Assembly: GCF_007751035.1 (NCBI RefSeq)
Contig: NZ_CP036433.1
Span: forward strand, 6,429,001-6,493,000
Length of the DNA stretch: 64,000 nt
Direction of reading: 5' to 3'
Source: Lignipirellula cremea
GTDB taxonomy: Bacteria; Planctomycetota; Planctomycetia; Pirellulales; Pirellulaceae
Part shown: one piece after another, positions 4,820-64,000 of the stretch
How positions within the stretch are numbered: position 1 is the stretch's first letter
Layout: each line of letters opens with the position of its first letter
Position numbers and translations under genes: made by a program
Notes under the pieces: model-generated
Database searches by the model: none
What the model was told of the DNA's origin: nothing
What the model saw: the letters and a program-made list of their open reading frames with translations, nothing else

Positions 4820-5119
4820 GCCGCACACTCTCTCGCAGCCGGCGAGGCGAGGTCCCTTCAGTCTGCCGGAGTAACAAAATGAACAATAACCAGGCAGGCC
4901 GCCAGGCAAGTTTTTTCGAGGGAAAACAGGCACGAACCCCGCCAGACGCACGCGCCCCGCATTTCCCGGCCTGGCTCTCCAGGGCGAACGTTTTCGCACT
5001 TGTCGGCCATTTTTCCGGATTGTAACAGAATTCATTCCCTTCGATATGGGCGGCCCGCCTGGCGGACTGTTTGCCACGCCGCACTCCGCCTGCCGTGAGC
5101 CCGTCGTCGAATCTACATA

Positions 5120-5148
5120 TTGAACTTTAGTTCAGTTATCTGTACAAA
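5120..5148 (+). promoter_or_regulatory. Candidate dnaE2 promoter with LexA-like box GAACTTTAGTTC
   Basis: TTGAAC (5120-5125) and TACAAA (5143-5148) are separated by 17 bases, a sigma70-type layout with four of six matches in each box. The 12-mer GAACTTTAGTTC at 5122-5133 fits GAAC-N4-GTTC, the core of the Gram-positive LexA/DinR box, and it overlaps the -35 box as a repressor site would. It is 374 bases before the dnaE2 start. dnaE2 is an SOS gene in many bacteria. Binding is inferred, not shown. Confidence 0.45.
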
Positions 5149-5233
5149 TCGTTTAACGTCGTTCCCACAACGCACACGCAAAGCGAAAGCCGACGAATGG
5201 CCAGGCCGGGCGACAAGAGCGACTTTTCCTAAA

Positions 5234-5410
5234 ATCAGCCGCCGGGCCCTAGCCCCCTGCACCCTCTAACGAGGGGACCCTTCAAAGGTTCCAGGTGATA
5301 AAGCATGCCCAGGGATCGTCGAGATTCATTGCTATTTCGTGCGTAGAGAACGTCAGGGATGAGTGGCGGTGAATGCTGGCGAACCGTGGGCTAGCGCTCT
5401 GCGGCTGATT
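5234..5410. repeat. Inverted pair of GC-rich repeat cores in the dnaE2 leader
   Basis: ATCAGCCGCCGGGCCCTAG at 5234-5252 is followed by CCCCC, and its inverted relative (CTAGCGCTCTGCGGCTGATT at 5391-5410, preceded by GAACCGTGGG) lies ~130 bases away. The same core is part of the MITE-like modules at 11557-11585 and 54956-54982. The two arms could pair in the RNA leader of dnaE2, although with mismatches. Confidence 0.5.
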
Positions 5411-5506
5411 GCGAGTGGATTCGCCGCTGTTGGCCTCAAATCTGACGCTCACAGGCGGACGAGGAAGTCCGGGGTTACCAGAGCGAAGAAACGGGATGTT
5501 CTTTTG

Positions 5507-8500
5507 ATGCACTACGCAGAGCTCCACTGCAAAACGAACTTCTCCTTCCTGGAAGGCGCCTCGCATGCGGCCGAACTGGCCGAGAAGGCCCATGCCCTGG
5601 GCTACCAGGCGCTGGCGGTGACCGACGTCAACAGCCTGGCCGGCGTGGTGCGGGCCCACATGGCCGCCAAGGACCTGGGGCTGAAGCTGCTGATCGGGGC
5701 CGAGATCGTCCCGCAAGAGGGGCCGCGACTGCTGCTCTGGGCCACCAACCGGGCCGCATACGCCCGGCTGGCCCGGCTGATTACGGTCGGCCGCCGGCGA
5801 GCGCCCAAAGGGCAGTGCCTGCTGACGATCGACGACGTCGCCCAGCATGCGCAGGGGCTGATCGCCGGGCTGGTTCCGCCGCCCCAGCTGCTGGACGGAC
5901 CGGAAGCGTTGCAGCAGGCCGTCGACCATGCGGCCCAGGTCCGCGAGATTTTTCCTGGGCGAACGTATCAACTGGGCGAAATCTCCTGCGGCCCCAACGA
6001 CCGCCGACGACTGGCCGAGGCGGCCGCCATTGCCCGGCAGGCCGGCGTGCCGCTGGTCGCCGCGGGCGACGTCCATTACCACAGCCCGTCCCGCTTGCCT
6101 TTGCACGATGTGCTGACCGCGATCCGTCACGGCGTGCCGATCACCGAGGCGGGCGAGCAGTTATTCCCCAACGCCCAGCGTCATCTCAAACCACTGCCCG
6201 AGATCGAAAGGGCGTTCGCCGATTATCCCGAGGCCGTCGCCCGCACCCTGGAGATCGCCGACCGCTGCAACTTCTCGCTCGATGAACTGCGGTACGAATA
6301 TCCAGAAGAGCTCGCCCCGCCGGGCCTCACGCCGTATCAGCATTTGAGCGACCTCGCCTGGCGCGGCGCCAAAAAACGCTACCCCCAGGGCGTGCCCCGC
6401 AAAGTGCACGCGATGATTGAGCATGAGCTGCAGTTGATCCAGGAGTTGCGGTATGAGGCGTACTTTCTGACGGTGTGGGATCTGGTGCGGTTCGCCCGCA
6501 GCCGGGGCATTTTATGCCAGGGCCGGGGCTCGGCGGCCAACTCAGCGGTCTGCTTTTGCCTGGGCGTGACCAGCGTCGACCCGGTGCGGTGCGACCTGCT
6601 GTTTGAGCGTTTCGTCAGTCGCGAGCGGGATGAGGCGCCCGACATTGATATCGACTTTGAGCATGAACGCCGGGAAGAGGTCCTGCAGTACCTGTATGAA
6701 AAGTACGGCCGGGAACGGGCCGGCATGACGGCGGTCGTCATCACTTATCGCATCCGTTCCGCCGTGCGCGATGTGGGCAAGGCGCTCGGCCTGTCGCTGG
6801 ACCGGATCGACTCCCTGGCCAAAAGCGTCGAGGGCCGGGGGGAAGAAAACCTGGCCCAGCGGTTTGCCGCGGCCGGCTTTGATCCGACGACCGACCTGGG
6901 CCAGCGGCTGATCTATCTGGCGACCGAACTGCTGGGCTTCCCCCGGCACTTGTCGCAGCATGTGGGCGGGATGGTGATTACCCAGGGGCCGCTGTGCGAA
7001 CTGGCGCCGATCGAGAACGCCGCCATGGACGGGCGGACCGTCATTGAATGGGATAAAGACGACCTCGACGAGCTGGGCATTCTCAAAGTCGATTGCCTGT
7101 CGCTGGGGATGCTGGCCGCCATTCGCAAGAGTTTCACCAAGATCCAGCAGCACTACGGCCGTAGCTTAAGCCTGGCTTCAATCCCCGAAGGCGACCCCAA
7201 GGTGTACGACATGATCTGCAAGGCCGACACGATTGGCGTCTTTCAGATTGAGAGCAGGGCGCAAATGAATATGCTGCCCCGTCTGCGGCCGCGATGCTTT
7301 TACGATCTGGTGATCGAGGTCGCTATTGTGCGGCCGGGCCCGATCCAGGGCGACATGGTGCACCCTTACCTGCGACGCCGGGCGGGTGAAGAGACTCCCA
7401 TCTATCCCAACGAAGCGATCCGCGAGGTGCTGCATAAAACGCTGGGCGTGCCGCTGTTCCAGGAACAGGCGATGCGGCTGGCAGTCGTCGCCGCCGGGTT
7501 CACGCCGGGAGAAGCGGACCAGCTGCGTCGGGCCATGGGAGCCTGGCGCCGGCCGGGCGTGATCGACCAGTTCCGCCACAAACTGCTGGCCGGCATGCAG
7601 GAACGGGGGCTAACCGAGAAGTTCGCGATGCTGGTGTTTGACCAGATTCGCGGGTTCGGCGAGTACGGTTTCCCGGAGTCGCACGCGGCCAGCTTCGCCC
7701 TGCTGACGTATGTTTCGGCCTGGCTGAAACGGTACTACCCGGCCGTGCTGACCGCGTCGATTCTGAACAGCCTGCCGATGGGCTTTTATGGACCGGCGCA
7801 ACTGGTGCGGGACGTCCGCAAGGCGGGCGTCGAAGTGCGGCCGGTCGACGTCAACTTCAGCGACTGGGATTGCACGCTTGAGGAGCGCAGCTCGCCCGGC
7901 GGTCGACGTCAGGGGGAAGCCGATCGGTATGCGTTACGGCTGGGGCTGCGGATGATTTCCGGCCTGCGCAAGGCGGCCGGCGCCGCGATCGAAACGGCTC
8001 GCCAGGCGGGACCATTTGCTTCTGTCTGCGACCTGAAAAGACGCACCCGCTTGAGCCGCACGGCCGTCTCCACGCTGGCGGCCGCCGATGCGCTGGCTTC
8101 GTTATGCGGAAACCGCCGGACGGCTCTCTGGGAAGCGCTCGCCCTGGACGACGAAGAGCGTCCGCTGTTTGCCCTGCTGGCCGACAACGAACCGCCAGCC
8201 GCGCTCCCCCGGGCCGGCCTGCAGGAGGAAACGCTGACCGACTATGTCACCACGGGGCTGTCGCTCAAGGCGCATCCCATTTCTTTCTGCCGCCGCGAAC
8301 TGGATCGGCTGTCGGTCGCCCCCGCGGAGCAGTTGGCGTTTGTCGCCAACGGTCGGTTCATCCGCACCGCCGGGCTGGTGCTGTTGCGGCAACGTCCGAG
8401 CACCGCCAAAGGAATAACCTTTGTGACGCTTGAAGACGAAACGGGCGTGTCGAACCTGATCATTAAACAGGCCGTCTGGGAGCAGTTCTATACGATTGCC

Positions 8501-8635
8501 CGCCGCTCCCAGGCCTGGATCGTCGAGGGGAAACTGGAGTGCAAGCACGACGTGGTGAATATCGTCGTGAGCAAGATCCAGGACCTGACACATCGCCTGC
8601 GCGACGTCCGCTTCCGCTCGCGGGATTTCCAGTAA
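5507..8635 (+). CDS. dnaE2: Error-prone DNA polymerase III alpha-type DnaE2
   Basis: This C-family DNA polymerase serves translesion synthesis during the SOS response. It is 1042 residues from ATG 5507, where the sequence begins with the family-typical MHYAELHCKTNFSFLEGAS. The N-terminal PHP domain is followed by the polymerase core with the acidic motif PDIDIDFEHERREE, then the helix-hairpin-helix region, and a C-terminal OB-fold (ending SRDFQ). The length fits DnaE2 rather than replicative DnaE1 (~1160). The usual partners imuA and imuB are not adjacent. The upstream leader holds a LexA-like box, consistent with damage induction. Confidence 0.93.
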   Translation: MHYAELHCKTNFSFLEGASHAAELAEKAHALGYQALAVTDVNSLAGVVRAHMAAKDLGLKLLIGAEIVPQEGPRLLLWATNRAAYARLARLITVGRRRAPKGQCLLTIDDVAQHAQGLIAGLVPPPQLLDGPEALQQAVDHAAQVREIFPGRTYQLGEISCGPNDRRRLAEAAAIARQAGVPLVAAGDVHYHSPSRLPLHDVLTAIRHGVPITEAGEQLFPNAQRHLKPLPEIERAFADYPEAVARTLEIADRCNFSLDELRYEYPEELAPPGLTPYQHLSDLAWRGAKKRYPQGVPRKVHAMIEHELQLIQELRYEAYFLTVWDLVRFARSRGILCQGRGSAANSAVCFCLGVTSVDPVRCDLLFERFVSRERDEAPDIDIDFEHERREEVLQYLYEKYGRERAGMTAVVITYRIRSAVRDVGKALGLSLDRIDSLAKSVEGRGEENLAQRFAAAGFDPTTDLGQRLIYLATELLGFPRHLSQHVGGMVITQGPLCELAPIENAAMDGRTVIEWDKDDLDELGILKVDCLSLGMLAAIRKSFTKIQQHYGRSLSLASIPEGDPKVYDMICKADTIGVFQIESRAQMNMLPRLRPRCFYDLVIEVAIVRPGPIQGDMVHPYLRRRAGEETPIYPNEAIREVLHKTLGVPLFQEQAMRLAVVAAGFTPGEADQLRRAMGAWRRPGVIDQFRHKLLAGMQERGLTEKFAMLVFDQIRGFGEYGFPESHAASFALLTYVSAWLKRYYPAVLTASILNSLPMGFYGPAQLVRDVRKAGVEVRPVDVNFSDWDCTLEERSSPGGRRQGEADRYALRLGLRMISGLRKAAGAAIETARQAGPFASVCDLKRRTRLSRTAVSTLAAADALASLCGNRRTALWEALALDDEERPLFALLADNEPPAALPRAGLQEETLTDYVTTGLSLKAHPISFCRRELDRLSVAPAEQLAFVANGRFIRTAGLVLLRQRPSTAKGITFVTLEDETGVSNLIIKQAVWEQFYTIARRSQAWIVEGKLECKHDVVNIVVSKIQDLTHRLRDVRFRSRDFQ

Positions 8636-8673
8636 GGAACGCAAGGGAATTCCTCTTGCGATTTCGACCTGGT

Positions 8674-8705
8674 CGTTTGGCGAATTCGCCGGCGCAAAAA
8701 GTCGG
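8674..8705 (+). repeat. 32-bp dispersed repeat, copy 1
   Basis: These 32 bases match 41835-41866 at 27 positions without gaps (shared parts TCGTTT, GCGAA, GCCGGCGCA and AAAGTCG). This copy contains the perfect palindrome GGCGAATTCGCC at 8679-8690. It lies 38 bases after the dnaE2 stop, inside a 296-base gap with no other visible gene. Confidence 0.55.
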
Positions 8706-8931
8706 CGGACGTCGCACCAGCCAGACAGGAACAGCCGGCGCCAAGGGAATAATCGAGACTGCCGGACCCCGTCATATCGAGGGGGTGCTTTTTGGGGAGC
8801 GGGTTGCTATTCTTACAAGTAATTGCTGATCTGTTGGCGACGGCCTTTTCCGGCTGTTTCTGCGGCGGCGATTGCCTGCCTGCTGTCCTCGATGCGTCTC
8901 CTGCCTGCCTTGCGTGTGGAAAGATTGATCT

Positions 8932-10221
8932 ATGAAACGCAGTTCGCTTTGCAAACCCTGGGAGCATCAACTCACCCGGCGTCGCTGGCTGGCCGGGGCG
9001 GCCGGTTCCGCGATGGGAGCGCTGGCGCTCGGCGGCCAGATTCCGCCGGCGATCGCCGCCGAGGTGAAGAAGCAGAACAAGCAGGTGCTGTTTGTCTGGC
9101 TCGACGGCGGCATGAGCCAGCTGGAAAGCTGGGACCCCAAACCGAACACGGAATTTGGCGGGCCGTTCCGCACCATTCCCACCAGCGTGCCGGGCGTGCA
9201 TTTGTCGGAACTGCTGCCAAATACAGCAAAGCAGATGCACCACCTGGCCGTCGTCCGGAGCCTGTGCACCCAGGACAACGCGCATTCGTCCGGCGTGGAG
9301 AGAATCCAGCGGGGCGACCCCAAGAACCGGGGCGTGGTCTATCCGTACTTCGGCTCGGCCGTGGCCAACCTGCTGCCGCGCAACCCCAGCGGGATGCCGC
9401 CGTATGTGTGGATCAAGCCGATGAGCGGCGGTTTCAAATACCAGGACGCCGGTTTCCTTGGCGCCAAATACGGGGCGCTGGCCTTTGGCGACGGTCAGCC
9501 GCCGGAGAACCTGTTGCGGCATGAATCCGTCAGCGAAGCCAGTATGGCCTCGCGGAATGCCTTCCGTCTGGCGGCCGAACGCCGGTACGCGGCCCAGCAT
9601 GGCGAGAGCGCGGCCGAAGCGAACTGCTTTGTGTACGACATGGGCCTGGAACTAATGAACCGCCAGGAGCTGTTCGATTCCTCCAAGGTCGCCCCGCGCG
9701 ATGTGGAGCGATACGGCACACACGACCTGGGCCGCCACATGCTGCTGGCCAGAAGAATGCTGGAAGCAGGCGTGACCTTTGTGAAGGTCAACTCGTACGG
9801 CTGGGATACGCACGGCGACAACTTCAACGGCAGCCTCAGTCTGGTCCGCAAGTTCGACCAGCCGTTCGCCGCCATTGTCGAAGACCTGGCCGCATCGGGG
9901 ATGCTTGATAACGTGCTGGTGATCGCCATGAGCGAGTTTGGCCGCACGCCGCGGATCAACGGCCACCTGGGCCGGGACCACTGGCCCGAAGCCTGGTCGG
10001 TCGCCATGGCCGGCTGCGGCATCAATCGCGGTCTGGTCGTCGGCCACACCGATCCCACGGGCACCTTTGTCGACAGTGAACCGTACGACATTGGCCACAT
10101 GTTCCACACCTGGTTCAACGCCCTGGGCATCGATTCGCAAAAACACGAGTACGACAACGAGGGGCAGCCGCTGCCGATCGCCAACGAAGAGTGCTATCCG
10201 GTGAAGGAACTGCTGGCGTAG
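8932..10221 (+). CDS. DUF1501 domain protein, Tat-exported
   Basis: This is a 429-residue protein of the DUF1501 family, which has an alkaline phosphatase/sulfatase-like fold and is greatly expanded in planctomycetes. A twin-arginine signal is visible at residues 16-24 (RRRWLAGAA) followed by a hydrophobic stretch and IAAE cleavage region. Family signs are VLFVWLDGGMSQLESWDPKP near the mature N-terminus, NSYGWDTH in the middle, and MSEFGRTPRINGHLGRDHW near the end. It is normally paired with a DUF1549/DUF1553 cytochrome gene. Here the partner is the WD40 gene 72 bases downstream. The enzymatic role is not established. Confidence 0.9.
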   Translation: MKRSSLCKPWEHQLTRRRWLAGAAGSAMGALALGGQIPPAIAAEVKKQNKQVLFVWLDGGMSQLESWDPKPNTEFGGPFRTIPTSVPGVHLSELLPNTAKQMHHLAVVRSLCTQDNAHSSGVERIQRGDPKNRGVVYPYFGSAVANLLPRNPSGMPPYVWIKPMSGGFKYQDAGFLGAKYGALAFGDGQPPENLLRHESVSEASMASRNAFRLAAERRYAAQHGESAAEANCFVYDMGLELMNRQELFDSSKVAPRDVERYGTHDLGRHMLLARRMLEAGVTFVKVNSYGWDTHGDNFNGSLSLVRKFDQPFAAIVEDLAASGMLDNVLVIAMSEFGRTPRINGHLGRDHWPEAWSVAMAGCGINRGLVVGHTDPTGTFVDSEPYDIGHMFHTWFNALGIDSQKHEYDNEGQPLPIANEECYPVKELLA

Positions 10222-10293
10222 CCCGCCGCTTCCCGCCGCAACCCTGGTCGACGAACTCCCTTTCAAATTCTCTAAACGACGAGTCTTCTCCCT

Positions 10294-11409
10294 ATGGCTC
10301 AAGACGCTCAACCCACGCCGCAGCCGGTTTCGGTCGTTACCACCGATCGCCAGATGGCGCTCGTCCGCTTCAGCCCTTGCGGCCAGTTCCTGGCGGCCGC
10401 CGGACGCGACGGTTCCATCCGCCGCTGGCGTTATTCGGAAGAACCGCTTCCCCAGGAACCGGAAACCGATCCGGTCAAAGCGAAGAAAGCAGCCAAAGAG
10501 CTGCCCCAGTATTACGCCGACATGCCGGCCATCCAGGGACATAACGGCTGGGTCAGCCGGGTGGAGTACCATCCGACCCAGAAGACGCTGATTGCCGCCG
10601 ACTCCTGGGGGAAACTGGCCGCCTGGACCTACGAAGACGACCAGGCGAAAGCGGTCTGGGAAGTGGAAGCGGCCCACGATGGCTGGCTGCGGCAGTTCGC
10701 TTTCAGCCCCGACGGCAAGCAGATCGCCACCTGCGGCATGGACCACTGGATTCGCCTGTGGTCGGCGACCGACGGCAAGCTGCAGGCGGAATGGAAAGCG
10801 GGCGAAGAGGTCCACTCGCTCGTATACCATCCGACTGAACCGGTGCTCGTCTCGGGCGATCTGTTCGGTGTCGTCAAACAGTGGGATCTGGCGACGAAAG
10901 AAGTCAAACGCGAGCTCGACGCGTCCGTCTTTTATCTGCTCTCCCGCATCCAGGATGTCGGCGGCGTGCGGACGTTGACCTTTGATAAAGACGGCAAAGT
11001 CCTGGCCGCGACCGGCACCAAACCGACCGGCGGCGGTTTTGTCCAGGGCTCGCCCGTTGTGCGGTTCTTTGACTGGTCGACAGGGAAAGAAACGGAAACG
11101 CTGGAACTGGGGCCGAACACGGACGGCTACATTCACGACTTCCACTTTCATCCTGACGGCTACTGGATTGGCGCCGCCAGCGGCCAGCCAGGCAAAGGGA
11201 AGTTCTTCCTGTTAAAGCCGGGCGAGAAAGAGCCTTTCTACACCCAGGTGCTGCCGAACTGCCATTCGATCGCACTCCATCCCGACGCCAATCGGATCGC
11301 CGTGGTCGCCAACGCCGGGATCTACGGCCAGGCAAAGTCGATGGCCCGAGAAGGAATCTACCCCGGCAACTCTTCGCCCATTCATATTTATGATCTGACG
11401 ACCGTATAG
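10294..11409 (+). CDS. WD40 repeat protein
   Basis: This 371-residue beta-propeller has several blades ending in WD-like pairs (SIRRWRYSEE, LAAWTYEDD, WIRLWSATDGK, VVKQWDLATKE, VRFFDWSTGKE). No signal peptide is obvious; the N-terminus MAQDAQPTPQ leads straight into the first blade. Gene order after a DUF1501 gene suggests a joint role, and planctomycete DUF1501 loci often include WD40 partners. It probably acts as a protein-interaction scaffold. Confidence 0.85.
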   Translation: MAQDAQPTPQPVSVVTTDRQMALVRFSPCGQFLAAAGRDGSIRRWRYSEEPLPQEPETDPVKAKKAAKELPQYYADMPAIQGHNGWVSRVEYHPTQKTLIAADSWGKLAAWTYEDDQAKAVWEVEAAHDGWLRQFAFSPDGKQIATCGMDHWIRLWSATDGKLQAEWKAGEEVHSLVYHPTEPVLVSGDLFGVVKQWDLATKEVKRELDASVFYLLSRIQDVGGVRTLTFDKDGKVLAATGTKPTGGGFVQGSPVVRFFDWSTGKETETLELGPNTDGYIHDFHFHPDGYWIGAASGQPGKGKFFLLKPGEKEPFYTQVLPNCHSIALHPDANRIAVVANAGIYGQAKSMAREGIYPGNSSPIHIYDLTTV

Positions 11410-11448
11410 GCGATGTCGCCCTTTGGCTGGCTCGTAGTCAGAGCGTTG

Positions 11449-11480
11449 TGGCCAAATCTGAAGGTAGTGGATTTGGCCAC
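11449..11480. repeat. Perfect 11-bp inverted repeat
   Basis: GTGGCCAAATC (11449-11459) and GATTTGGCCAC (11470-11480) pair perfectly across an 11-base loop. It overlaps a GTAGTGG...CCACTAC palindrome at 11464-11483. It follows the WD40 stop by 40 bases and could end transcription, but no T-run follows. Its GTAGTGGA start recalls the repeats at 28194 and 52532. Confidence 0.5.
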
Positions 11481-11490
11481 TACCATCCAA

Positions 11491-11622
11491 CTAGTGGTGC
11501 TTCAAACTTCAATCTTCGAGTGAGCGATTTCGGCCGTGCTGCTGTGCTGCCAAAAAAACCGGGGGCTATCGCCCGGCGGCTGATTGAGAGAAACCTGATT
11601 TTATGGTTTGACGCCCCCCTAG
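11491..11622 (+). mobile_element. MITE-like module type 1, copy A
   Basis: This 132-bp non-coding element has imperfect terminal inverted repeats: CTAGTGGTGCTTCAAA on the left and the complement CTAGGGGGGCGTCAAA on the right, 13 of 16 matching. It contains the core GGGGGCTATCGCCCGGCGGC. A near copy lies at 54918-55055 in the opposite orientation. There is no transposase gene, so any movement would need one supplied in trans. Confidence 0.6.
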
Positions 11623-11727
11623 TGCTGCTTCCAATTAGCCGTTTTGGCGATAGCCACGGTTAACGAAAAGGAACAGCGGCTCGCGCGAAAATGGCCAAAC
11701 CTGAAATGGAAACTTGACGCACCACTA
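11619..11727 (+). mobile_element. MITE-like module type 2, copy A
   Basis: This 109-bp element abuts module 1, sharing CTAG. Its ends are CTAGTGCTGC and (complement) CTAGTGGTGCGTCAAG. From TTCCAATTAGCCG to the right end it matches 55086-55184 almost base for base in the same orientation; it lacks ~23 bases near the left end that copy B keeps. Its right end supplies the TAG stop of ald. Confidence 0.6.
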
Positions 11728-12834
11728 GTCGTTAAAGAGCCTGGCCAACGGCAGGTCGAACGATTCGGCGACGGCCTGATTGACGACCTGGCCGTTGTGG
11801 ATGTTGACGGCGGCGGCGAGCGGCCGCAAGCGCTGGGCCGCATCGATGATTCCGTTCCGGGCGATCTGCAGCACCCAGGGCAGCGTCACGTTGCACAGGG
11901 CGAACGTGCTGGTCCGGCCCACCGCGCCGGGCATGTTGGTCACGCAGTAGTGGACGACTTCCTCCTCCACAAACACCGGATCGCTATGGGTGGTCGGACG
12001 GGCCGTTTCCACGCAGCCGCCCTGGTCGATCGCCACATCGACGATCACGCTGCCGGGCTTCATGATTTTGAGATCCTCCCGCGTGATCAGCCGGGGGGCT
12101 TTGGCTCCCGGGATCAGCACGGCGCCAATCACCAGATCGGCCAGCCGCAGTTCTTCGCGAATGGTATGGCGATCGCTGAACAGCACATTGACGTTGGCCG
12201 GCATGATGTCGTCCAGCCGGCGGAGACGATCCATGTTGATATCCAGGATGGTGACGTCCGCCTGGAAACCGGCGGCGATCTTGGCCGCATTTGCTCCCAC
12301 CACGCCGCCGCCCAGGATCGTAATGTGGGCGGGCGCCACGCCGGGCACGCCGCCCAGCAGGATGCCGCGTCCCAACTGCGGCCGCTCCAGAAAGCGGGCG
12401 CCTTCCTGGATGCTCATGCGTCCGGCCACTTCGCTCATGGGAGTCAGCAGCGGCAGTTGTCCCTGGTCGTCGCGGAGCGTTTCATAGGCGACGCAGCTGG
12501 CCCCGGACAGAATCATCGCTTCGGTCAGGGCGCGATCAGCGGCAAAGTGGAAATAGGTAAACAGCGTCTGGCCGGGACGCAGCAGGGCCCATTCGGGTTC
12601 CAGCGGCTCTTTGACTTTGACGACCAGATCCGCCCTGGCAAAGATCTCCTCGGGGCCAGGGACCATTTCAGCCCCGGCGGCCAGGTAATCATGATCGTAG
12701 ATGCCGGAGCCCAGACCGGCGCCCACTTCGATCAGCACGGTATGGCCGGCTCGGGCCAGCTCCTCCACGCCTACCGGCAGCAACGCCACGCGATACTCGT
12801 CCCGTTTGATTTCCCTCGGCGCCCCAACAATCAT
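11725..12834 (-). CDS. ald: Alanine dehydrogenase
   Basis: This NAD-dependent enzyme interconverts L-alanine and pyruvate plus ammonia. I chose ATG at 12834 (369 residues), which gives the family start [10 protein letters not shown]. Catalytic residues are visible as K75 (VKVKEP) and H96 (TYFHFAAD), and the Rossmann motif [12 protein letters not shown] is in the second half. The last codons (LFND, stop) read directly into the terminal repeat of the module at 11619-11727, so the TAG is part of the repeat. The length is close to the usual ~370, so no more than a few residues can have been lost. Confidence 0.95.
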
Positions 12835-51639: not shown

Positions 51640-51877
51640 CGCGACGGATCGTTCTGATCGGCCGCCCGACGTGAAAAAAGTTTGTTCAGATCGTGCTAAA
51701 TAGTGTGTTTTGAATTTTCTTCGAAATACAATTAGGAACGAGACCGGCCGGGCCTCCGGTCCGAGAACTGGCGCCGGATGCGGGGCCGCGTCCGCCAGTC
51801 GCCGCCTGATAGCGGGCGGCTGCTTTTGTCATTGCGGCTGGGTCCCGCTTTCTCGAATTTCCTCGGAGACAAAGTCC

Positions 51878-52522
51878 ATGAAGATCACATTGAAGCGTCT
51901 GGCGGCGGCTTGCCTGGCAATGGCCGGCTGTTTCCTGCTGGCCGCCCCCAGCACCGCGCAGTCGCCTTATGGTCCCTACGGCCAGGGACAAGCACCTTAC
52001 GGCCAGGGTCAAAATCCCTACGGCCAGGGACAGACTCCCGCCGCAGCGCCGGGAGCTGCTCCGGCTGCGGCGCCGACGGTGATTCATATTCACCATCACT
52101 ACGGTCCGGCGGCCCCTTCGGCAAATCTGATCTCCGGCAACCAGGCCTCGACCGCCTGGAACTACGGCTGGCAGCCTGGAACCGGCACCATCGTGACGCC
52201 CTGGAAACAGAACTGGGGCCATCTGGGCTTCACCGGTTATCTGGGACAGCACGGCGGCGGCGTGGATCTGGATGTCGCCTCGCTCGATGTCTTTACCGGC
52301 CTGGTCGTCGACACGGTGACGCCTGATAGCCCGGCGACGCAGCTGGGTCTGGTGCCGGGCGACTTCATCCGCTCCATCAACGGCACGGCCGTCGATAATT
52401 ACAAGCAGGTAACCAACCTGTTCGAACAGACCGAACAGCAACCGGGCGGCGAACTGACGATGGAAGTCTGGAACCCCCACACCCGTCGCACCTCGACGTT
52501 AACCGCCAAAATCGCCGACTAG
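51878..52522 (+). CDS. Exported PDZ-domain protein with a G/Q/Y-rich repeat
   Basis: This 214-residue protein starts at ATG 51878 (GGAGA upstream). It has a signal peptide (LAAACLAMAGCFLLAAPSTA), then three tandem repeats of the type PYGQGQ (residues ~29-55), an alanine/proline linker, and a C-terminal PDZ domain (GLVVDTVTPDSPATQLGLVPGDFIRSING split over the ligand loop). It has no protease domain, so it is likely a periplasmic scaffold. A strong terminator lies downstream. Confidence 0.8.
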   Translation: MKITLKRLAAACLAMAGCFLLAAPSTAQSPYGPYGQGQAPYGQGQNPYGQGQTPAAAPGAAPAAAPTVIHIHHHYGPAAPSANLISGNQASTAWNYGWQPGTGTIVTPWKQNWGHLGFTGYLGQHGGGVDLDVASLDVFTGLVVDTVTPDSPATQLGLVPGDFIRSINGTAVDNYKQVTNLFEQTEQQPGGELTMEVWNPHTRRTSTLTAKIAD

Positions 52523-57246: not shown

Positions 57247-58434
57247 ATGGCTGATCCAAAAAAACTATCGGTAGAAGAAATTCTCGCTGCCTGTCGCAAG
57301 GTCGACGGCGATGCGGCTTCACAGGCAGAACCGCCCGCGTCGGAAGCGACGCCCCCGGCGGAATCTGCCGCGACCCCGCCAGCCGCCAAGACCCCGTCCC
57401 CCGCAGCGGACAAGCCGGCCGCCAAGGCCTTGCCCTCCGGAGAGGCCCGCAAGCTCAGCGTCGAAGAGATGCTGGCCGCGGCCCGCGCCGAAAAGGCAAA
57501 GAAAGCGGCTGCCGAGACCGCCGCTCCGGCGGCCCCAGCTGCGTCCGCTCCTGCCGACGGCGGTAAGATCGATTCGGCTGCCGCCCGCAAAATGAGCGTG
57601 GCCGAAATGATGGCCGCCGCACGTGGCGAAAAAGACAAAAAAGCGGCTGCTCCCGCGGCCAAGAAAGCTCCCGCCGCCAAACCGGCCGCAGCCGTCGCCA
57701 AAAAAGAAGCCGCGCCTGTTAAAGGTGGACCGCTCGACACCGCCAGCATTCTGGCCGCCGCCCGGACCGATAGCAAACGCGGCCCGATGAGCAAGGCCGA
57801 AGCCGCCGCCAAAGGCGTGCCCGTTCCGGCTGGCAAGCCCGCCGTCGTCGCCCCGCCGATGCCGCAAAAACCAGCTTACGCCCAGCCTCGGGCTCCGCAG
57901 CCCGTTGCCGATGGTTCAACCCGTCGCGGTTTCATGGCCGCCATTACGGGCACCCTGTTTGGTTCCTCGCTGGCCATCGGCTTTACCGCCTTGTCGCTCA
58001 CGAATGTGCTGTGGGTGCTGGGGCTGGCCCGGTTCATGTTTCCGAATATCCTCACCGAACCGCCGACGAAGTTCAAAGTCGGTTTCCCGGGCGATCTGGC
58101 TCCGGGTCAGGTGGAGACAAAATACAAAGCTCAGTTCGGCGTCTGGATTGTGCGCGGCGACTATGAAGGCCGCGACATGATCTACGCCCTGAAGTCTGTT
58201 TGCACGCACCTTGGCTGCACTCCCAACTGGCTGGAAGGCGAACAAAAGTTCAAATGCCCCTGCCATGGTAGTGGTTTTTATAAAGACGGCATCAACTTCG
58301 AAGGCCCTGCCCCGCGTCCGCTGGAGCGGTACGCCATTCGGGTCTCCGACGACGGCCAGTTAGAGGTCGACAAGAGTCAGACCTTTAATGAAGAAAAAGG
58401 CGACTGGAAAGACCCTGCTTCCTTCGTCGCTTAG
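57247..58434 (+). CDS. Rieske iron-sulfur protein with long repetitive N-terminus
   Basis: This 395-residue subunit belongs to a bc-type complex. FeS ligands are C319/H321 (CTHLGC) and C337/H340 (CPCHGSGF), with the disulfide pair C324/C339. A twin-arginine motif STRRGFM at 224-230 precedes the membrane helix, so export is by Tat. The ~220 residues before it would stay in the cytoplasm; they are A/P/K-rich and carry four copies of a helical motif (LSVEEILAACRK at 7, LSVEEMLAAARA at 70, MSVAEMMAAARG at 116, LDTASILAAART at 163). Ordinary Rieske proteins lack this. It is the first gene of the cluster. Confidence 0.93.
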   Translation: MADPKKLSVEEILAACRKVDGDAASQAEPPASEATPPAESAATPPAAKTPSPAADKPAAKALPSGEARKLSVEEMLAAARAEKAKKAAAETAAPAAPAASAPADGGKIDSAAARKMSVAEMMAAARGEKDKKAAAPAAKKAPAAKPAAAVAKKEAAPVKGGPLDTASILAAARTDSKRGPMSKAEAAAKGVPVPAGKPAVVAPPMPQKPAYAQPRAPQPVADGSTRRGFMAAITGTLFGSSLAIGFTALSLTNVLWVLGLARFMFPNILTEPPTKFKVGFPGDLAPGQVETKYKAQFGVWIVRGDYEGRDMIYALKSVCTHLGCTPNWLEGEQKFKCPCHGSGFYKDGINFEGPAPRPLERYAIRVSDDGQLEVDKSQTFNEEKGDWKDPASFVA

Positions 58435-60868: not shown

Positions 60869-60985
60869 GAGTGACTAAGCACTCGTTCTTCGTTATCGCA
60901 GGACGAGCTGTGAGATACCAGGCGATCGTTTCGAGTCCCGAGATCTTCCACCTTGCGCCAGCGGATTTTGGCGGAGGTTAATCTT

Positions 60986-63900
60986 ATGCCGGCAACAGAA
61001 CAAACTTGGCGCAATCAATCGCGTCTTCATCAGATTTTCGCAGTCTCGGGCGTCCTGCTGCTGCTCGTGACCCTTTGGATGTTCTGGGCCGACCATGCGC
61101 GGCCCTGGAAAGCGTACCAAAGTAAAGCGCGAAACATCGAGCTCCAGATGAACCAGTGGCGACAGCTGCAGTTCAAAACGGACAGCCTGATGAAGGAGCA
61201 CGCCGACCTGCAGGAGGAAGTGGTCCGCGCTCGCAGCAAGCCGATTGATCCAGAAATTTACAAGAGCATCAAGGAGTCGGTGATCGCCGATGCTGCGGCC
61301 CGCAAGGCCAGCACGCCGAATCTCGCCAACCTGGACCGCTCCGTCGAATCGGTGAAAACGCTCGGCGAAGAAGCACAGGCCAAACGCGCCGCTTATAACG
61401 CGATCGAAAACGAAATCAACAGCTCGGAAACCCGCACCCAAGAACTGCGGAACGAAATCGCCGAACACGAGAAGACAGCCGCCGCCTCGCAAGTCGAAGT
61501 CGATGGCGCCAAAGCGGAGGTCGTCAACGAACAGGCCAAGAAGGAAGCAGCGGAGAAAAAGCTGGAAGAAGCCAAGAAGAACAGCGACGCCGACGCGATC
61601 GAAGCTGCCGAAACGGAGATCGCCGACTCCGAAGTCAACATCGAAATTTATGGCGAAATCATCGCCGAAGAAGAGAAAAAAGTCGCCGACGCGAAAGCAG
61701 CCGCCGCCCCGGCCGAAGCGAAAATCAAAGCGATTGCCGAAGGTCTGCCCAAGCTAAAAGAACAGCTGGTAGCCGCGGACCAGGAAGCTCTCGCCGCCGA
61801 GAAAAAGGCCGCCGCCCGCCGACTGGAAGTGCTGGAGGAATTCGACCAGCTGATCGCCGCTGCCCGCTATCGCGAAGACCTGCTGCTCACCGAGCGCAAG
61901 TTCAAATCAGCCCAGCTCGACGCCAAAAAAGCCGAACTCGGTCTAGCTGTCCGCGATGAAAAAGACCAGGAAGAACTCGACCGCCTGCAGGGCGTGATCG
62001 ACGGCATGATCAACGAAGAGGAAACCGGCTTCGCCGCCCTCACCGAGAAATACCAAAGGGCGTCGGTCCACCGGAACCAGCTGGCCGACTATGTGGCGAC
62101 GCTGCGAAAAGACGCCGTCGAAGTGGAAATGCGTCTGGCCAAAAGCCAGTCCGACCTGGATCAGCTGCAGAAGGCGTACGCACAGCAGCAGTCGACCTAC
62201 TTCTCCAGCGGCTACCCGCTGCTGGGCAAGAAGATTCTGGAACTGCCGATTCTCGATGCGTTCAACTCGCCGCTCAAAATCGAGAATCTGTGGAACGAAG
62301 AGCTGACGATCGACTACAACTTCAGTCGCGTCCGCCGCTTTGATCGCTGCACGACTTGCCATCAAATGATGGACAAAACCATGCCGGGCTCGGCCGTTGA
62401 CGCCGCCTACCCTGAGCAGAAACTCATTACGTTCATTGTCCCGACGCCGCAAACGCCGGAAGAAATGGGCGAGGTGCCCGACGCCGCCAGCGAGCAGATG
62501 GAACAGCGCGTGCTGGAAGTTTACGGTCTGAAACTGGCCGCTCCCGGCGAGGGTCTCATTGAATCCGATGCGGTGACGCTCAGCTTTGTGTCGTCCAATT
62601 CCCGCGCGGCCCGCGCCTTCAAGGCGCCCACCGGCAAGGAACTGGAAGGTCTGCCCGGTACGGAAGTCGTCGCCCTGGCCGCCACGGACTGGATGAGCCA
62701 GCCGAACGACGGCGTCGCCAATGGCCTGCTGCCGGGCGATGTCATCTATGAAATTAACGGTGACTACGTCCAGTCCCGCGAAGAAGCAATGCGGTTCATG
62801 ATGAACCCGGTCGACATGGCCGATGAACGCGGCAAACAGTTGCGCGTCACCGTTCGCCGCGGCCTGCCGGAACCGTTCGCTTCGCACCCGCGACTTGACC
62901 TGTTCCTGGGTTCGCTCAGCCCGCACCCCATGTCGGTCTACGGATGTACCTCGTGCCATGAAGGGCAGGGCAGTGCGACCTCTTTCGAATGGGCCTCGCA
63001 CACGCCGAACAGCCCCAAGCAGGCGGCCGAATGGTCCCGCGAACTGGGCTGGTTTGACAATCATCACTGGATCTATCCGATGTATCCGGAGCGGTTCCAG
63101 CAGTCCTCCTGCCTGAAGTGCCATCACGATGTGACCGAGCTCCAGGCCAGCGAACGCTTCCCCGATCCCCCGGCGCCGAAAGTCGTGCACGGTCACGACG
63201 TGATCCAGAAATTCGGCTGCTTTGGCTGCCATGAAATCAATGGTTACGACGGCAACAAACGGATCGGTCCCGACATGCGGCTGGAGCCGAATGTGTTCGC
63301 CGCCGCCCAGGAATTTGTCGCGGCGCCAAACTTCAATCTGCTCAGCGAAGAAGAGCAGCTGAATGTGGAAACGCTGATTCACCACCCCGAAGACGACAGC
63401 GCCCGCCGCCAGGTCTTCAAGTTGTTGACCCAGGAAGGGAAGGCGGCCGTCGACGACGACCCGGCCACCGAACCGCGTTTGACTCCCAATACGATCGACC
63501 TGGCTTCGATCTTCAAGGATTCGGATACGCCCGGCACGCTTCGCCGCGTGGGACCCAGCTTGCGCTTCGTCCGCGAGAAACTGGGCGCCTCCTTCCTGTT
63601 TGACTGGATTCGCCAGCCTTCGAACTTCCGGCCCACTACCCGCATGCCGCAGTTCTTTGGACTGACAAAGCACCTGCACGGCGAGGAAGAGATCGAGACC
63701 ACCGAGAATTACGAACAGGTCGAGATCCTCGGCGCCGTGGCGTACCTGCTGCACTCGAGCCAGAAGTTCGAACCACTGCAGCCGCCGGCGATCGAAGGCG
63801 ATAACCGGGACGAAACCGTTCGGCTGGAGAACGGCAAATGGCTGTTCCAGTCCCGCGGCTGCCTCGCCTGCCATTCGCACGAAGAATTTCCGGATGCGAA

Positions 63901-64000
63901 CATTTTCCGTCCGGCCGATCAAATCCAGCAAGGTCCCGACCTGTCGCACCTGGCGGAAAAATTCGCCGCACGCGGCAAGGACGATGTCACCGCCAAAGGC
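60986..64000 (+). CDS. Coiled-coil, PDZ and multihaem cytochrome c subunit (3' end outside window)
   Basis: The frame is open from ATG 60986 (GCGGAGGT upstream) to the last base, 1005 codons so far. A short N-terminus leads to one membrane helix (residues ~16-34), then a long Ala/Glu/Lys coiled coil to about 420. Haem sites are C455-TTCH, C654-TSCH, C709-LKCH, C745-FGCH and C959-LACH. A PDZ-like domain lies at ~553-625 (GLLPGDVIYEINGDY). Gene order makes it the cytochrome c partner of the bc complex, anchored in the membrane and reaching into the periplasm. The total size and haem number are unknown. Confidence 0.88.
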   Translation, partial: MPATEQTWRNQSRLHQIFAVSGVLLLLVTLWMFWADHARPWKAYQSKARNIELQMNQWRQLQFKTDSLMKEHADLQEEVVRARSKPIDPEIYKSIKESVIADAAARKASTPNLANLDRSVESVKTLGEEAQAKRAAYNAIENEINSSETRTQELRNEIAEHEKTAAASQVEVDGAKAEVVNEQAKKEAAEKKLEEAKKNSDADAIEAAETEIADSEVNIEIYGEIIAEEEKKVADAKAAAAPAEAKIKAIAEGLPKLKEQLVAADQEALAAEKKAAARRLEVLEEFDQLIAAARYREDLLLTERKFKSAQLDAKKAELGLAVRDEKDQEELDRLQGVIDGMINEEETGFAALTEKYQRASVHRNQLADYVATLRKDAVEVEMRLAKSQSDLDQLQKAYAQQQSTYFSSGYPLLGKKILELPILDAFNSPLKIENLWNEELTIDYNFSRVRRFDRCTTCHQMMDKTMPGSAVDAAYPEQKLITFIVPTPQTPEEMGEVPDAASEQMEQRVLEVYGLKLAAPGEGLIESDAVTLSFVSSNSRAARAFKAPTGKELEGLPGTEVVALAATDWMSQPNDGVANGLLPGDVIYEINGDYVQSREEAMRFMMNPVDMADERGKQLRVTVRRGLPEPFASHPRLDLFLGSLSPHPMSVYGCTSCHEGQGSATSFEWASHTPNSPKQAAEWSRELGWFDNHHWIYPMYPERFQQSSCLKCHHDVTELQASERFPDPPAPKVVHGHDVIQKFGCFGCHEINGYDGNKRIGPDMRLEPNVFAAAQEFVAAPNFNLLSEEEQLNVETLIHHPEDDSARRQVFKLLTQEGKAAVDDDPATEPRLTPNTIDLASIFKDSDTPGTLRRVGPSLRFVREKLGASFLFDWIRQPSNFRPTTRMPQFFGLTKHLHGEEEIETTENYEQVEILGAVAYLLHSSQKFEPLQPPAIEGDNRDETVRLENGKWLFQSRGCLACHSHEEFPDANIFRPADQIQQGPDLSHLAEKFAARGKDDVTAKG

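Follow-up and report, generated by a model that had tools for sequence, protein, structure and literature searches.

Near the end of a 64,000-nucleotide stretch of Lignipirellula cremea DNA (contig NZ_CP036433.1; the whole stretch is called the window below), genes for a Rieske protein and a cytochrome b are followed by a long open reading frame (ORF) with haem-binding motifs. What does so large a c-type cytochrome do beside these genes? We found that the ORF encodes an octahaem protein of 1,841 residues. Judged by its place beside the Rieske, cytochrome b and subunit-IV-like genes, this ORF provides the c-type subunit of a Rieske/cytochrome b cluster, and oxidase genes lie downstream of it (Table 1). 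The protein is likely to be the eight-haem c-type output arm through which a b6f-like menaquinol oxidase feeds an aa3 oxidase.

The ORF begins at position 60953 (TTG) or 60986 (ATG) and is open at the window end. We take the ATG as the start: M1 is invariant across the 54 rows of an alignment (A2) of 53 of 73 homologue N-termini plus the window's own. From this ATG, the frame runs for 2,511 bases beyond the window on the same 9.57-Mb contig before it reaches a stop codon. The C-terminal 130 or so residues are high in Pro, Ala, Lys and Asp. An earlier note on the window had described a c-type subunit that is not a small c1, with one membrane helix and at least five CXXCH sites, encoded by a gene that extends past the window. 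This description stands, and the gene is larger than first seen, with three further haem sites and oxidase genes beyond the window.

We compared the protein with two sets of relatives. The first comes from a search of 292 Planctomycetota genomes, conducted within the phylum, in which the haem part is matched at E <= 0.001 in 172 genomes, although the weakest matches may be other cytochromes. From these 172 genomes, 20 were picked by hand, giving 21 stretches together with the window. The second set comes from a scan of species genomes, whose best 80 of 535 confirmed relatives are the named loci used below. All are titled Planctomycetota or its groups, save one bin titled Nealsonbacteria, and 62 contain a complete gene. 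Homologue starts were assigned mechanically as the first start codon after a stop.

Gene order is conserved in both sets, as the earlier note had anticipated. Genes for the Rieske protein, cytochrome b and subunit IV all lie upstream in 19 of the 21 stretches; L046 has no Rieske match, and in L051 cytochrome b is about 10 kb off. The same three genes are upstream at 56 of the 57 named loci with more than 3.5 kb of upstream sequence, the exception being L116. Of the searched genomes, 37 belong to the window's class. A strong cytochrome b match (E < 1e-90) and a strong match to the giant protein (E < 1e-27) occur together in 19 of these, 18 have neither (weak or no matches) and none has one alone. 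The two matches are 2.0-2.8 kb apart in all 19; these counts and distances were compiled by hand from the genome-search positions.

Five of the eight CXXCH motifs lie inside the window and three past it, and together they contain all 16 cysteines of the protein. At the DNA level, the number of CXXCH motifs in the window barely exceeds chance (7 versus 3.2 expected; 4 of 100 shuffles reach 7). Chance was rejected as an explanation, however, because five motifs share one frame and exactly eight are found in all 62 complete homologues. All 21 stretches likewise encode exactly eight. In these 21, three histidines (H634, H647 and H672) are invariant candidate distal ligands for haems 1-3, and five methionines (M887, M1025, M1292, M1538 and M1659) are invariant, one for each of haems 4-8. 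We infer bis-His ligation for haems 1-3 and His/Met ligation for haems 4-8. The first three haems look like a c3/c7-type group, and Cytochrome_C7 is matched by all 54 A2 members at E <= 0.1. The haem part of the Blastopirellula marina homologue is predicted with a predicted local distance difference test (pLDDT) score of 84.5 and a predicted template modelling score of 0.83 over 1,188 residues, and among the structural matches of this model is a class I cytochrome c domain resembling SoxX (Z 11.2). In the model of the window's protein, the region of haems 2-4 has low confidence.

Relatives are widespread in planctomycetes, usually beside oxygen-reductase genes, and are also present in anammox bacteria. 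Strain-titled records with the complex include Blastopirellula marina DSM 3645, Lacipirellula limnantheis I41 and Paludisphaera soli JC670, the last without the oxidase set. A second alignment (A3) holds 50 of 60 homologues, with L099 and L130 dropped beforehand. Our tree is a quick one: 26 of 70 inner branches are unresolved, the anammox row sits on a long branch, and ten loci judged by eye to be near-duplicates were excluded. Several loci titled 'Candidatus Kuenenia stuttgartiensis' (L060, L062, L065, L069, L093 and L108) have oxidase-type clusters, unlike the anammox locus. L093 and L108 fall among other planctomycetes on the tree, and the titles look wrong. L095, titled likewise, is cut off.

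The cytochrome b contains the motif TWCMGG, whose cysteine we take to be the one that binds haem ci in b6f, and WC.GG is kept in 63 of 64 homologues among the named loci. LHLHP occurs in 63 of 64 cytochromes b and LHVHP in the remaining one. In the subunit-IV-like protein, the Qo-site motif is APWY, within a KAPWYF sequence found in all 69 homologues, including the anammox protein. The bc1 and b6f complexes have PEWY at this site. The N-terminal 200 or so residues of the subunit-IV-like protein look like an added membrane domain (457 residues in total versus 277 in the anammox protein). The Rieske protein carries a long extension (57247-57960) with three SVEE[IM]LAA[AC]R-like copies in Pro/Ala-rich linkers. 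Of the Rieske homologues, 19 of the 40 at PDZ-type loci have at least two copies of this motif, compared with none of the 21 others; none of 3,949 other ORFs does.

A low-potential Rieske protein was considered, with Phe replacing Tyr, and dropped: Kustd1480, an anammox Rieske protein that shares this Ser/Phe pair, has a measured potential of +335 mV (PMC12954380). A potential like that of Kustd1480 would suit an aa3 oxidase.

Downstream of the octahaem gene, genes for cupredoxin, dihaem cytochrome c, CoxB, CoxA and CtaA are present at 36 of the 47 named loci with more than 7.5 kb of downstream sequence. In homologues of the two cupredoxin-like proteins, a motif resembling a copper site (C and H separated by 1-3 residues, H and M by 2-5) is present in 66 of 72 and 40 of 40, and its stricter version, C.[IV]HPWM, in 50 of 72 and 37 of 40. 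The copper reading of this pair rests on the C-x-H-x-M-like motif, and the proteins are perhaps an unnamed blue-copper family tied to the cluster. No NAD(P) oxidoreductase gene is among the ORFs of the window's locus from Rieske to CtaA.

As output arm, the octahaem protein would occupy the place of cytochrome f in a b6f-like Rieske/cytochrome b complex; no cytochrome f family is among its Pfam/NCBIfam matches. Quinol, probably menaquinol, would be oxidised at the Qo site. The first electron would pass to the Rieske cluster and then to the octahaem protein, probably entering at the membrane-proximal bis-His haems 1-3 and continuing along the five His/Met haems 4-8. It would leave either to carriers encoded by neighbouring genes (the blue-copper-like proteins and the dihaem cytochrome c) or directly to the CuA site of CoxB, and so reach the aa3 oxidase. 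The second electron would return to quinone via the b haems and haem ci, building a proton gradient. Both the coiled-coil hairpins and the PDZ domain would be enlargements specific to the lineage, which probably serve to clamp or dock partners such as the Rieske protein or the oxidase and would not span the periplasm.

Table 1 Features of the octahaem cytochrome locus, in window positions and, where given, positions in stretch L002
Feature	Window position	Strand	L002 position	Basis or remark
Rieske iron-sulphur protein	57247..58434	+		Pfam Rieske E 9e-10; CTHLGC...CPCHGSGF; long N-terminal extension before membrane helix
b6-type cytochrome b, N-terminal half, 264 residues	58556..59350	+		Pfam Cytochrome_B E 4.5e-41
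Subunit-IV-like protein, 457 residues	59495..60868	+		Pfam Cytochrom_B_C E 1.6e-4; ten hydrophobic segments
Octahaem cytochrome c subunit, 1,841 residues	60986..64000, stop at 66511 beyond window	+	4986-10511	
Single membrane helix, residues 17-35	61034..61090	+		Hydropathy; helix 11-37 in model
Coiled-coil / helical-hairpin region, residues 40-401	61103..62188	+		Heptad test, predicted model, structural matches
Haem 1 CXXCH, residue 455	62348..62362	+		Motif
PDZ domain, residues 476-628, between haems 1 and 2	62411..62869	+		Family profile and predicted fold
Haem 2 CXXCH, residue 654	62945..62959	+		Motif
Haem 3 CXXCH, residue 709	63110..63124	+		Motif
Haem 4 CXXCH, residue 745	63218..63232	+		Motif and conservation; first of five sites with invariant Met
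Haem 5 CXXCH, residue 959	63860..63874	+		Motif
Haems 6-8 CXXCH, residues 1158, 1344 and 1612	Beyond window			
Two cupredoxin-like proteins	Beyond window		10706 and 11619 (span 10706-12554)	Signal-like N-termini; copper-site-like motif
Dihaem cytochrome c	Beyond window		12628	Pfam/NCBIfam
CoxB	Beyond window		14006	Pfam/NCBIfam
CoxA	Beyond window		About 14844	Pfam/NCBIfam
CtaA	Beyond window		16794	Pfam/NCBIfam

Several observations weigh against a role in feeding the oxidase. Neither of the cupredoxin-like genes has a Pfam or NCBIfam match at E <= 0.01. The full oxidase set is missing at 11 of the 47 loci; on the tree, five of these fall in the Gemmatales and four in the Isosphaeraceae branch, and two are Thermoguttaceae. 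In the anammox relative, an NAD(P) oxidoreductase gene is present instead, and the 20 kb read there contains no oxidase gene. In addition, the window's genome has two more COX1 matches and another cytochrome b, as well as an NrfD gene (alternative complex III-like) about 5 kb before one COX1. Given these further genes, the octahaem complex is therefore not the organism's sole oxygen route and, by gene content, is one of several.

The arm might instead serve another periplasmic acceptor or donor (nitrogen oxide, metal or another reductase), the adjoining oxidase genes being separate and kept in place by co-regulation. A role with another partner was already proposed for an anammox Rieske/cytochrome b complex (PMC12954380), and the anammox cluster, with its NAD(P) oxidoreductase and without oxidase genes, fits such a role, as do the loci that lack the oxidase set. 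The candidate bis-His ligation of the three c3/c7-like haems is a hint of a wide range of potentials, and there is a weak, below-cut-off match to an MtrC/MtrF domain. (This match was the sole pointer to an outer-membrane electron conduit, which we rejected.) However, the oxidase set is kept downstream at most loci, five of the eight haems have an invariant Met, and no HAO or NrfA family is among the Pfam/NCBIfam matches listed (for A2, 25 of 90 families), with no direct comparison to HAO made. We therefore regard another partner as unlikely, and supply of the aa3 oxidase remains our preferred role.

The earlier note had also proposed that a stalk with about 370 residues of coiled coil, together with the haems and the peptide-binding domain, could span the wide periplasm of planctomycetes and hold redox partners. 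In this reading, the haems would be lifted to partners distant from the membrane. The membrane helix is indeed followed directly by about 360 residues, mostly helical, and their heptad periodicity of L/I/V/M/F beats shuffles (z 3.7; 2 of 500). On the strength of this test and of the predicted helices, we rejected a low-complexity artefact, although the test fails with a wider residue set: with A, Y and W added, there is no excess over shuffles (z 0.9; 88 of 500). None of the outcomes that the note had named as telling against its proposal occurred: the frame adds haems, the homologues are linked to cytochrome b and the coil is not an artefact.

The stalk itself fares worse. The model has separate helices at residues 11-37, 40-64, 66-83, 89-105, 114-199, 202-323, 328-343 and 349-401 (mostly pLDDT >= 87), with breaks near 105-114, 200, 324-328 and 344-349. 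The best structural matches of the coil are mostly antiparallel hairpins (chemoreceptors, SMC arms and SH3BP5), although this is weak evidence, as such matches are common for long helices. Among the 62 homologues, the number of residues before haem 1 varies from 75 to 437, with just 75-171 in five of them; the length of this stretch is therefore not essential. In one further member of the 62, L130 (Paludisphaera soli), 782 residues precede haem 1, with a start codon taken mechanically. In the published AlphaFold3 model of the anammox relative, whose larger c subunit is Kustd1485, long helices wrap round the complex (PMC12954380). We rejected the periplasm-spanning stalk, which seems quite improbable. 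The coil is probably made of several helices that fold back, and is more likely to be a clamp or scaffold than a mast.

It is very improbable that the protein is an ordinary enlarged c1/f analogue in which the haem nearest the Rieske protein alone matters and the others have no relay function, since, although the spacing of haem domains varies greatly (gaps of 100 to 448 residues after haem 4), eight CXXCH motifs are kept in 62 of 62 homologues, and all 21 stretches, including that of the 948-residue anammox relative, keep eight candidate distal ligands.

The PDZ-like domain that the earlier note saw between the first two haems is a PDZ domain by family profile and predicted fold. Pfam matches on the window's protein are sub-threshold (PDZ_2 E 0.0017, PDZ_6 E 0.013), and PDZ_6 is matched by 35 of the 54 A2 members at E <= 0.1, with a best value of 5e-10. 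Superposed on solved PDZ domains, the predicted model reaches Z 11.3 in the best rows (root mean square deviation 2.0-2.3, 89-90 residues), and the B. marina model also matches the fold (Z about 11). With neither model did Foldseek find a PDB entry at E <= 0.001.

In the complete genes, the spacing of haems 1 and 2 falls into two groups: 41-105 residues in 26 of 62 and 151-279 in 36 of 62. Apart from one distant row, the long form is confined on the tree to a single clade, where it accounts for 31 of 35 rows; the four short-form rows within the clade may be losses. The window's protein lies in this clade, and its nearest row by path is titled Blastopirellula. The Rieske C-terminus reads [FY][VI]xV at 29 of 46 loci with a PDZ-sized gap versus 3 of 35 without, and a looser pattern gives 37 of 46 versus 9 of 35. 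This is only a hint that the Rieske tail is the PDZ ligand, as the comparison is confounded by ancestry, the PDZ loci being nearly one clade. The window's own Rieske tail is SFVA, which does not fit [FY][VI]xV, and the anammox Rieske protein ends in a close variant, AFLKV, without a PDZ domain in its locus. A separate PDZ protein with a signal-like N-terminus is encoded at 51854-52522 (PDZ_6 E 1e-9) and is unrelated to the cluster as far as seen. In the open-access literature searched, no paper was found that has 'PDZ domain' together with 'multiheme cytochrome'.

It is conceivable, though doubtful, that the complex is a new type of respirasome in aerobic planctomycetes, in which the eight-haem arm would hard-wire a b6f-like menaquinol oxidase to the aa3 oxidase with no diffusing carrier. 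The coil hairpins would clamp, and the PDZ domain would dock the C-terminus of a partner, perhaps the Rieske tail. The NAD(P)-linked anammox complex would be a sister form that uses the same module with another partner.

We now compare the cluster with known complexes. Like b6f, it has a split cytochrome b and subunit IV and the haem-ci cysteine. Unlike b6f, it has an octahaem protein in place of cytochrome f, APWY for PEWY and a subunit IV with ten hydrophobic segments. The bc1 complex differs in having a single full-length cytochrome b and a small c1, in contrast to the 264-residue cytochrome b, separate subunit-IV-like gene and 1,841-residue octahaem c found here. The best NCBIfam models for cytochrome b and the subunit-IV-like protein are ExtP (E 7e-78) and ExtQ (E 5e-16), from the Ext cytochromes of selenite/tellurite operons, and there are weak ExtS matches for the octahaem family. 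However, all of these matches are below the cut-offs, and the ExtS model has only 262 positions compared with the 1,841 residues of the window's protein. The Ext operon cytochromes belong to Geobacter. Multiple Rieske/cytb complexes were reportedly treated by ten Brink et al. 2013, and this work and that of Kartal et al. 2013 are said to bear possibly on the complex. No description of the aerobic planctomycete complex was recognised in the open-access literature searched, judged by titles and the starts of abstracts.

If our reading is right, the cluster is functionally like the actinobacterial bcc-aa3 supercomplex, in which complex III and aa3 are connected by a multihaem c arm anchored in the membrane (PMC5040959). 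However, the bcc-aa3 arm is a dihaem c1, with 2 haems versus 8, and the proposed link to aa3 here is one of gene neighbourhood.

The closest known complex is Kustd1480-1485, the Rieske/cytochrome b complex of the anammox bacterium Kuenenia stuttgartiensis. PMC12954380 describes two anammox Rieske/b complexes with a b6-like cytochrome b, a subunit-IV-like protein and a hexa- or octahaem c. We equated our anammox locus with Kustd1480-1485 via residues S114/F116, H62/R266/K267 and R550 in three proteins named there. Its octahaem protein is homologous to that of the window over several stretches (best 117 bits, E 3e-30). The earlier note knew of no named complex with this build. That claim fails in that Kustd1485 is a homologous octahaem subunit, and holds in that the PDZ domain, the size and the oxidase cluster differ. 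Both clusters encode a Rieske protein with Ser/Phe next to the cluster, a b6-like cytochrome b, a subunit-IV-like protein and, as octahaem c, a protein that has long helices and a membrane helix at its N-terminus. The histidine aligned with the predicted ligand of a novel interface haem b in Kustd1481, which belongs to the LHLHP or LHVHP motif noted above, is also kept in clusters without NAD(P) oxidoreductase. By contrast, the anammox octahaem protein has 948 residues, with haems 1 and 2 only 39 residues apart and no room for a PDZ domain, and its cluster has the NAD(P) oxidoreductase gene between cytochrome b and subunit IV.

The window's cluster has no such oxidoreductase, and its octahaem subunit is therefore, by homology, a member of the described Kustd1485 subunit family but not of the anammox complex type. 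The planctomycete form is set apart by its size, its PDZ domain, its longer subunit IV and its oxidase cluster, where the anammox form has the NAD(P) oxidoreductase. This comparison ties the anammox octahaem Rieske/cytochrome b complex to a complex of many Planctomycetota, including those with strain-titled records, so that the role of the multihaem arm could become testable in pure cultures.

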